Positions 22,903 to 26,210 of a stretch of DNA of 64,000 nucleotides are shown in pieces. The notes under the pieces are model-generated. The model did no database searches and was not told where the DNA came from. It saw only the letters and a program-made list of their open reading frames with translations. Source of the DNA: Exiguobacterium sp. FSL W8-0210 (GTDB lineage: Bacteria > Bacillota > Bacilli > Exiguobacteriales > Exiguobacteriaceae); assembly GCF_038006045.1 (NCBI RefSeq), contig NZ_JBBOUK010000001.1:971001-1035000 (forward strand), written 5' to 3'. Position numbers and translations under genes: made by a program. Position 1 is the first letter of the stretch. Every line of letters starts with the position of its first letter.

Positions 22903-24708
22903 TCATCCATGCTGTAGCAATTGTTCGTATAGGTCATCGAGTTGCTGTTGGATGCTTTTAGAAACGGTATCGGTCGGTTTTTCACGTTTTGCTAATTTCT
23001 GTTCAAGCCGCTCGATCTGCACTTCTAACTCATGTTGTGACAAGCGTTTTGGTTTTTGAGGAGTTACGTGGAGTGAGGAAGACGTAGCGAACTCAGCACG
23101 CTTCTGTTGAGCATACGTATACGTACCATGATAACGCGTCAGACCATTTTCGAGCCACAGGATCTGCGGAAATAGCCGATTCAAGAAATAGCGGTCGTGT
23201 GAGACGGCAATCAATGTTCCAGAAAAATTCTCGAGTGCTTCTTCCAACGTCTCTCTTGATTCAATATCGAGATGATTCGTCGGCTCGTCGAGAATTAATA
23301 CATTGACCGACGAATGAACGAGGACGGCGAGTTGCAATCGCACACGTTCGCCTCCGCTCAGTGACAAAATGGACCGAAAGACAGTTGGTCCAAAGAACAG
23401 GAACCGGGCTAGGATATGGCGGGCTTCCGCTTCTGGAACGGCAATCCGGTCTCTAAACCAGTCGATTAACCGCGCGTCCTCCTCGAAATGGGCATGCTGG
23501 GACAGGTAACCGATCCGATTCGATGGTCCACGCGTGAGTGTGCCTGCCTCTGGTGATAATTCGTCAAGCAGCAGTGAGAGCAACGTCGATTTCCCGCTCC
23601 CATTCGTTCCGACGATCGCGATCCGATCCTGTGCCATGATCTCGAACGAGACGTCATCAAAAATGTGACGGGTTCCATAAGCAAACGAGAGTTCTTCAGC
23701 GCGAAAGACGACTTGGCTCGAGTGATCAGTGGAAGAGAAGGAGACATCAGCGGTTTTGGCTTCGAGTTGTGGTCGTTTAATCCGTTCGATCCGCTCGAGT
23801 GCCCGTTCCATCGATTTTGCTTTACGGAATAATTTCTCACTCGGTGGAGACGCTTCGTTTGCCCATTGCCGGAGTCGACGAATCGCTTCCTTCATTTTCT
23901 TTATTTTTTTCTGTTGCTCTTGGTAGGCGTGGAACTGTTCCATCAAGCGACGTTCTCGTTCGACGACGAACGCGCTGTAATTCCCTATATAGGTTGTCAG
24001 TTCACCGTCCTCGAGTTCAACGATCGAGGTGACGACGGCGTCTAAGAAGACCCGGTCGTGAGAGACGAGCAGGATGGTTCCTGTGTAGTCCCGTAAGAAC
24101 TGCTCCAGCCATTCCACGGCAGCTAAATCGAGATGGTTCGTCGGTTCGTCAAGAATGAGCAGATTTGGCTCCATGAGTAACATGCGACCGAGACAAATCT
24201 TCGTCTGTTCACCACCGCTCAACTGGTGGAAAGGACGAGTGAGTAACGGACGAAGGTGTAACCCGTTCACCATGCGCTCGATCTTCGAGTCGAGTAGATA
24301 GCCATCCTTTTGTTCGAACGCATTCGTCGCTTCCGCATATCGCGCGAGTAACGCATCAAGATTCTCTGGTGCTGTCGCCATCATTTGCTCCAACTGTTGC
24401 ATCCGAGAACGGATCACGAGAGTCTCTGCAAACGCTGTCCAAAGGACGTCGAGTCCGGTCAGCGTCTCACTATATACAGGAAGTTGTTCCAAATAGCCGA
24501 TCGTCAAACCGCTCTTTTGATAGATGACACCACCGTCCGGTTGCTCAAGGCGAGCAAGCAAGCGGAGTAATGTCGTCTTACCACTCCCGTTTCGTCCAAT
24601 CAGACCGACACGGTCGTGTTCGTTTAAGAAGAGGGAAACATCCGCTAAGATCGTCTCGCCTCCGAATTGTTTTGTCAGGTGTTGAATGTCGCAAATCATC
24701 ATATTCAA
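22903..24708 (-). CDS. ABC-F family ATPase (ribosomal translation/antibiotic-protection type)
   Basis: Cytosolic protein with two ABC domains and no membrane segments, 601 aa. NBD1 has Walker A GRNGSGKTT, signature LSGGEQTK and Walker B LLILDEPTNHLD. NBD2 has GTNGSGKST, LSGGERVR and VLILDEPTNHLD. A basic coiled linker between them (about residues 245-325: EQQKKIKKMKEAIRRLRQW to FRKAKSMERALERIERIKR) is the P-site tRNA-interaction region of ABC-F proteins. The C-terminus is a short coiled coil. ABC-F members either assist translation or displace ribosome-targeting antibiotics; the attenuator-like leader upstream favours antibiotic protection. The drug class cannot be read from sequence. Confidence 0.9.
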   Translation of the reverse strand: MNMMICDIQHLTKQFGGETILADVSLFLNEHDRVGLIGRNGSGKTTLLRLLARLEQPDGGVIYQKSGLTIGYLEQLPVYSETLTGLDVLWTAFAETLVIRSRMQQLEQMMATAPENLDALLARYAEATNAFEQKDGYLLDSKIERMVNGLHLRPLLTRPFHQLSGGEQTKICLGRMLLMEPNLLILDEPTNHLDLAAVEWLEQFLRDYTGTILLVSHDRVFLDAVVTSIVELEDGELTTYIGNYSAFVVERERRLMEQFHAYQEQQKKIKKMKEAIRRLRQWANEASPPSEKLFRKAKSMERALERIERIKRPQLEAKTADVSFSSTDHSSQVVFRAEELSFAYGTRHIFDDVSFEIMAQDRIAIVGTNGSGKSTLLSLLLDELSPEAGTLTRGPSNRIGYLSQHAHFEEDARLIDWFRDRIAVPEAEARHILARFLFFGPTVFRSILSLSGGERVRLQLAVLVHSSVNVLILDEPTNHLDIESRETLEEALENFSGTLIAVSHDRYFLNRLFPQILWLENGLTRYHGTYTYAQQKRAEFATSSSLHVTPQKPKRLSQHELEVQIERLEQKLAKREKPTDTVSKSIQQQLDDLYEQLLQHG

Positions 24709-24718
24709 TTGATCCTTT

Positions 24719-24777
24719 CGCGCGCATCAAAAAAGGAGAGCGCAAATAGCACTCTCCCTAACGTGTGAAAGATGCGC
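24719..24777 (-). terminator. Leader terminator (attenuator) of the ABC-F gene
   Basis: On the minus strand GGAGAGTGC-tattt-GCGCTCTCC is followed by TTTTTTG, a strong terminator at 24757-24729, upstream of the ABC-F start and after a short leader ORF. A second possible pairing, GCGCATC (24777-24771) with GATGCGC (24728-24722), encloses the terminator and could form part of an alternative fold. Its place between leader ORF and gene is that of an attenuator. Confidence 0.85.
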
Positions 24778-24828
24778 TTTGCAGTATTTTTCATTCATGA
24801 AGTTCTTAAAAAAGGACAGACGGGTGCC

Positions 24829-24909
24829 TTAGAACGCCATTTCATGAAAAATCGCGCGCAACAGATACAATTGTTCCATCAACCAGTGTTTGCACGCGGC
24901 AAAGTCCAT
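24829..24909 (-). CDS. 26-aa leader peptide upstream of the ABC-F gene
   Basis: A short ORF begins with ATG at 24909, preceded by AAAGGTGGTG as a strong ribosome site, and ends with TAA at 24829. The peptide starts MDFAACKHWLMEQLYLL and ends RAIFHEMAF. About 70 bases separate its stop from the leader terminator. The order ribosome site, leader ORF, terminator, ABC-F gene is the known design of ribosome-stalling attenuators such as those of Bacillus vmlR and other ABC-F and erm genes. Stalling itself is inferred. Confidence 0.7.
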   Translation of the reverse strand: MDFAACKHWLMEQLYLLRAIFHEMAF

Positions 24910-24978
24910 CTTTTCACACCACCTTTCGTTTCAGATACATCTAGTTTACTATTTTTTTGTCAGTTAAGGAAGTCTGAA

Positions 24979-26039: not shown

Positions 26040-26055
26040 GGATGGGAATCGAATA

Positions 26056-26150
26056 ATGACCACTAGGGGAGTCGGTAGGCTGACTGAGACGAACGAAGAC
26101 GTTCGGACCCTTTGAACCTGATTAAGTTCGTACTTACGGAGGGAAGTGGC
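26056..26150 (+). promoter_or_regulatory. TPP riboswitch (THI box)
   Basis: The closing stem pairs CCACT (26060-26064) with AGTGG (26145-26149). Conserved elements are present in order: AGGGGAGTC, CTGAGACGAA, ACCCTTTGAACCTGATTAAG and ACTTACGGAGGGAAGTGG. These are the pyrimidine and pyrophosphate sensor arms of the TPP aptamer. A terminator follows before tenA, so thiamine pyrophosphate should switch the gene off. Confidence 0.95.
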
Positions 26151-26159
26151 GTCAAGTCT

Positions 26160-26210
26160 TGTTCTTCTTGCGCCATGCCCGTGTGTTTCGGGGTGGTGTT
26201 TTTTCGTTTC
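26160..26210 (+). terminator. Expression-platform terminator of the TPP riboswitch
   Basis: A hairpin with one bulge pairs CGCCAT-CCC with GGG-GTGGTG and is followed by TTTTTT at about 26201-26206, upstream of the tenA ribosome site (AGGAGG, 26221). Confidence 0.7.

Follow-up and report, generated by a model that had tools for sequence, protein, structure and literature searches.

The window, a stretch of 64,000 nucleotides from Exiguobacterium sp. FSL W8-0210, carries on its minus strand a gene for an ABC-F protein preceded by a short leader ORF (Table 1), with an intrinsic terminator between the two. The ribosome site, 26-codon ORF, spacer of about 70 bases, terminator with T-run and ABC-F ribosome site that a first-pass annotation had described were all found at the positions in Table 1, and the distance from the leader stop codon to the terminator stem is 69 nt. 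An alternative ABC-F start (TTG, 24708) is present in the ORF list. Transcription is expected to start near 24936. In the leaders of relatives, TAAACT, TAAAAT or TACAAT is found at the position of the candidate -10 element; a promoter scan of the locus did not pick up this candidate, and a consensus -35 is absent. A TPP riboswitch (RF00059, 76.6 bits) is found at 26055-26161 on the plus strand, just 5' of a plus-strand ORF.

Table 1. Features of the leader and ABC-F gene, in positions of the window
Feature	Position	Strand	Basis
Candidate -10 element TAAACT	24943-24948	-	putative; read from the sequence
Leader ribosome site (SD) AAAGGTGG	24919-24926	-	sequence
Leader ORF, ATG to TAA, 26 codons, MDFAACKHWLMEQLYLLRAIFHEMAF	24829-24909	-	sequence, pN/pS, NF041642 match
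P0 5' strand (leader ribosome site and codons 1-4)	24899-24919	-	folding, alignment
P0 3' strand, directly before the terminator	24763-24782	-	folding, alignment; helix also in other Bacilli leaders
P1 hairpin within the ORF, CGCGTGCAA (24898-24890) with TTGCGCGCG (24861-24853)	24853-24898	-	folding
P2, ATTTTTCAT (24852-24844, I-F-H codons) with ATGAAAAAT (24794-24786), enclosing P3	24786-24852	-	folding
P3 post-stop hairpin AGGCACCCGTCTGTCCT and T-run, probable RNA polymerase pause element	24808-24829	-	conservation; pause by analogy
Antiterminator, GCAAAGCGC(A)TC (24782-24771) with GAGTGCT (24754-24748) and TTGC (24745-24742)	24742-24782	-	partial-transcript folding
Intrinsic terminator, stem 24759-24733 (11 pairs), T-run to 24729	24729-24759	-	terminator call, alignment
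Outer 7-bp pairing, GCGCATC (24777-24771) with GATGCGC (24728-24722)	24722-24777	-	sequence
ABC-F ribosome site GAAAGGA	24713-24719	-	sequence
ABC-F gene, ribosomal-protection-like, start ATG 24702	22903-24702	-	NF000355 match, orthologs

The ABC-F protein matched the generic ribosomal-protection-like model NF000355 with 484.7 bits (cut-off 380), and its scores with the Msr, Vga, Sal, Lsa, OptrA and CplR models were all far below the family cut-offs. Orthologs that are approximately 42-53% identical are common in Bacilli, and matches at E 1e-115 were obtained in 154 of 300 Bacilli genomes; some more distant ABC-F proteins, with about 40% identity, also pass this threshold. Most of the 40 ABC-F copies read, and also the copies found in Listeria and on Staphylococcus plasmids, are preceded by a short ORF that has a ribosome site. 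The plasmid copies (L101 and L103) are about 44% identical, one is beside Pep5 lantibiotic genes, and a short ORF that has a good ribosome site lies 5' of each (MFLIAYCCRYLQIIRNKFS...).

The leader ORF was present 5' of the orthologous ABC-F gene in all of the Exiguobacterium genomes (19/19). Its conservation in relatives had been set beforehand as a test able to refute the attenuator idea, which survived. In a sister genus of the same family the leader is also present (19 leaders read); its start codon there is GTG and its peptide resembles (M)NFVGRTHWSTEHLYILRAIFHDVA. The conservation of the leader is far beyond chance. Within Exiguobacterium, with E. flavidum left out, pN/pS was 0.09 in frame versus 1.65 and 2.07 out of frame; it was 0.22 in frame within the sister genus, and over all pairs it was 0.29 in frame versus approximately 1.1 in the other two frames. 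Because the in-frame values are so low compared with those in the other frames, translation of the ORF, and selection on the peptide it encodes, are very probable. In the genome contigs, matches to an exact 30-nt leader pattern were restricted to Exiguobacterium, and the 26-aa peptide had no match among plasmid and phage sequences. Weak tblastn matches outside the family (G382, G172 and G341), where no adjoining ABC-F was recognised, were taken as chance. In one leader (L075, genome G324) the stop codon has become a sense codon and the ORF continues through the P3 hairpin to a TAG. In another case (L019, genome G016) the leader is intact and the ABC-F match is in two pieces, as if frameshifted.

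The first-pass annotation had judged the peptide unlike the leaders known to it, and a family can now be named. The peptide matched RAxF-45 (NCBIfam NF041642) with 19.0 bits (E 8.6e-4), which is below the curated cut-off of 27 bits, and the ORF read through its stop codon scored 47.1 bits. Many leader peptides of Bacilli fit the pattern LY.[LC]RA.F.......NGI.MPFF and others fit just part of it; the ORF in the window ends before the NGI.MPFF part, and the DNA past its stop codon is conserved as the P3 hairpin. By this match the window peptide, which shares the genomic place of the family 5' of an ABC-F ortholog, is identified as a shortened RAxF-45 family member. In the literature library searched for RAxF-45, no paper mentioning the family was found. 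When the 300 Bacilli genomes were examined using matches with E up to 0.01, 98 of the 116 RAxF-45 matches listed were found 59-304 nt upstream of the orthologous ABC-F gene on the same strand, as were 43 of the 45 strongest among the matches listed. Among the matches listed, there was none detected for 37 of the 135 genomes with this ABC-F gene. In most of the leaders read, 17-20 codons separate the RAxF arginine from the start (it is codon 18 in the window), a distance of about two ribosome lengths.

For the leader free of ribosomes, the predicted fold is a three-way junction that a helix of about 18 bp (P0) closes, with P1 and P2 inside and P3 within P2. P0 joins the leader ribosome site and start region to the segment preceding the terminator. 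The lineage means of the native P0 duplexes were between -24.1 and -29.9 kcal/mol, compared with -10.1 to -18.9 kcal/mol when partners were mixed between E. flavidum or the sister genus and other lineages; swaps among the closer Exiguobacterium clades discriminate poorly (-15.3 to -29.9 kcal/mol). In the alignment, 95.3% of cells were paired in P0, versus at most 52.3% with the partners slid, and both sides had changed in four of the eight counted pairs. The terminator was paired in 100% of cells, and both sides had changed in 3/8 pairs. Amongst 33 leaders of other Bacilli the native P0 mean was -29.5 versus -19.3 for mixed pairs, and in four leaders of other Bacilli (L083, L085, L095 and L105) the P0 pairing was no stronger than that of shuffled sequence. 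The two strands of P0 co-evolve. P2 had been our first guess for the anti-antiterminator; it was replaced by P0 because folding revealed P0 to be the stronger helix.

The 5' part of the P0 3' strand doubles as the antiterminator strand, and folding predicts that the P0 3' strand can pair alternatively with the 5' arm and loop of the terminator, so that P0 and the antiterminator are mutually exclusive. In partial transcripts ending before the 3' arm of the terminator, the antiterminator was freed in most leaders when folding was confined to the RNA 3' of the leader start. The outcome was then followed by codon in 13 leaders, using folding energies of partial transcripts that do not include kinetics and proteins. 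The antiterminator beat P0 in 13/13 leaders when the ribosome footprint was placed at codons 1-3; footprints at codons 4-9 had a mixed outcome, at codons 10-18 the antiterminator was ahead in none of the leaders, and at codons 19-27 in at most one. Based on this pattern, the modelled trigger is ribosome occupancy of the start region. Folding did not support a single ribosome on the RAxF codons as a direct trigger, as P0 still forms behind such a ribosome. By folding and covariation, the locus has a mutually exclusive anti-antiterminator and antiterminator set by ribosome position. The 7-bp pairing of GCGCATC with GATGCGC, which the first-pass annotation had put forward as an alternative fold, is present in the sequence. 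Transcription reaches the 3' half of this pairing only once the T-run has been made, so the helix is completed past the point of termination and cannot decide it, and in some relatives it is weakened; P0 and the antiterminator are predicted to decide instead.

An Rfam scan of 5 kb around the locus found nothing at the leader that reached E 1. In a 281-base search the leader matched rliI (RF01487) over its full length and on the right strand, with 20.0 bits (E 0.0028), which is under the gathering score of 45 bits; the Listeria leader scores 282.6 bits. RliI, listed in Rfam as an sRNA, likewise precedes an orthologous ABC-F gene in Listeria (L102, 49% identical to the window ABC-F), the closing helix in its Rfam structure is similar to P0, and the Listeria leader ORF includes an RAIFS motif. 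The Listeria ORF is, however, longer (36 aa), and its P3 hairpin is retained at approximately 2807-2830 of L102 with an A-run in place of the T-run. From this homology, the window RNA is regarded as a distant relative of rliI. The Listeria ABC-F gene is taken to be lmo2760, as rliI lies directly upstream of it and a review describes RliI, from term-seq, as a putative conditional terminator acting on lmo2760 (PMC8079631). In earlier work RliI was treated as a trans-acting sRNA, and the lmo1035-lmo1036 transcript and Rli51 have been reported as its binding partners (PMC8079631, PMC11394854). A model built from leaders outside the family found the window site with E 2.1e-10, the next-best site in the genome having E 0.28. 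RNAalifold retained only three pairs on the divergent alignment, so this model is essentially sequence-based. A leader match at E 1e-4 was found in eight of the 398 genomes of a phylum-wide sample, three of them outside the class Bacilli.

The pattern GGGA...GT.TG.CC followed by a T-run was found in most of the Bacilli leaders of the RAxF-45 kind. It lies in frame in some, out of frame in others (L113 and L120) and after the stop codon in Exiguobacterium; because of these different placements, selection on P3 probably acts on the nucleic acid and not on the peptide. The pattern is rare, with 0-2 occurrences per genome in 41 relatives. In several Exiguobacterium genomes the pattern occurs at a second site, where a leader with a ribosome site is lacking and the sequence resembles part of another gene. 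The same module is also found 3' of RLR-type macrolide leaders (L154-L157, L159-L161, L193 and L195). The genes scanned after them encode Msr (765.7 bits) and Erm (227.2 bits), both over the cut-off, and Mef-like and RlmA-like proteins, both below their cut-offs. By analogy with the NusG-dependent pause hairpins of the tlrB (PMC6851288) and vmlR leaders, P3 is probably an RNA polymerase pause element. Compared with the pause of the vmlR type (hairpin and TTNTTT), the hairpin and T-run in the window, as read from sequence alone, are both present and conserved.

The combination of a uORF, mutually exclusive folds and an ABC-F target is shared with vmlR of Bacillus subtilis and lmo0919 (rli53) of Listeria, a likeness in layout. 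The vmlR leader has a uORF, an anti-antiterminator, antiterminator and terminator, a pause hairpin with a T-rich motif and ribosome arrest near the start codon (PMC9226507), and the lmo0919 leader has a related arrangement with a three-codon uORF (PMC8079631). Both uORFs have three codons and no conserved peptide, whereas leaders of the RAxF-45 type have 26-45 codons that are under selection. In the are5sc and tiaA leaders of Streptomyces the uORF ribosome site overlaps antiterminator hairpins, and lincosamide, streptogramin A and pleuromutilin drugs arrest the ribosome at the start codon (PMC12421871). This arrest in the start region follows the same logic as our model, but these leaders belong to a different phylum and a different ABC-F group and their short uORFs are unrelated to that in the window. 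Macrolide leaders of the RLR/RYR kind (msr, mef, erm and tlrB types) have the P3 module in common with the window in several Bacilli cases, but their arrest occurs during elongation, and their R/K-x-R/K arrest motif is absent from MDFAACKHWLMEQLYLLRAIFHEMAF.

The proposal that the ribosome controls transcription of the ABC-F gene by attenuation is well supported by the conservation, the covariation, the exclusive folds and the homology to RliI. We consider it likely that the locus is an attenuator of the RliI/RAxF-45 kind that is switched at the leader start region, with a modelled logic resembling that of vmlR. While the start region is unoccupied, the ribosome site and first codons would pair with the pre-terminator segment; the segment held in P0 would be unable to invade the terminator, which would therefore form, and a leader RNA of about 200-210 nt would be released. 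A ribosome held on codons 1-3, or a queue that extends back to them, would block P0, and the freed segment would pair with the 5' arm and loop of the terminator, so that RNA polymerase could read through into the ABC-F gene. Pausing of RNA polymerase at P3 and its T-run would probably let the ribosome load first. The natural signal may be a drug or stress under which ribosomes stall at initiation or immediately after it, and the ABC-F gene may be induced by a ribosome-targeting drug. Of the antibiotic-sensing attenuator proposed in the first-pass annotation, ribosome-controlled attenuation has been retained and the 7-bp pairing as its switch has been abandoned.

A pure start-region switch leaves the conservation of the peptide unexplained. 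This would be accounted for if RAxF-45 peptides were true arrest peptides, with a drug or metabolite arresting the ribosome at RAxF and the ribosomes stacked behind it, rather than the arrested one, covering the start codon, blocking P0 and freeing the antiterminator. The purifying selection on the peptide and the spacing of the RAxF arginine agree with this, and the switch flipped in 13/13 leaders with modelled stacks of three ribosomes at codons 22-12-2 and in 12/13 with stacks at codons 25-15-5. However, a lone ribosome at the RAxF codons leaves the switch unflipped, the peptide has no known arrest motif, and the RNA of codons 17-25 is also engaged in the pairing of P1 and P2, which means that part of the constraint may be on the RNA. 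We consider control by such queues unlikely. It is also conceivable, if doubtful, that the leader reports the general status of translation initiation rather than drugs, the expression being constitutive or linked to growth and the ABC-F protein a housekeeping translation factor. The retention of the gene in all of the Exiguobacterium genomes, its place outside the named resistance families and the reported rise of rliI in stationary phase (PMC8079631) would fit, but the architecture is like that of the drug-inducible vmlR and are5sc leaders and the P3 module is common to macrolide-resistance leaders.

It is very improbable that the leader acts chiefly as an sRNA in trans or encodes a functional small protein, with the adjoining ABC-F gene incidental. 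Its conserved peptide and the reported binding of RliI to the lmo1035-lmo1036 transcript and Rli51 (PMC8079631, PMC11394854) are in keeping with such roles, but 98/116 of the RAxF-45 matches listed are directly 5' of the same ABC-F gene, and a conserved antiterminator would have no purpose in a free sRNA.

If the start-region attenuator is correct, one control device would explain both the RAxF-45 family of small proteins and the RliI sRNA of Listeria, which are separate catalogue entries, and the trans effects reported for RliI may need to be reread in the light of its acting as an attenuated mRNA leader. An ABC-F group that is widespread in Bacilli and falls outside the named resistance families is probably under translation-sensing control and is therefore a candidate for an intrinsic resistance or ribosome-rescue factor. 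The comparison also exposes a hairpin/T-run module that appears transferable and is common to several resistance leaders. In two instances (L162 and L163), an RAxF-like leader and terminator were found 5' of a gene for a protein of about 265 aa instead of an ABC-F gene. This protein had no NCBIfam match and resembles a SAM-dependent methyltransferase, and its gene is a possible further target of this type of leader.
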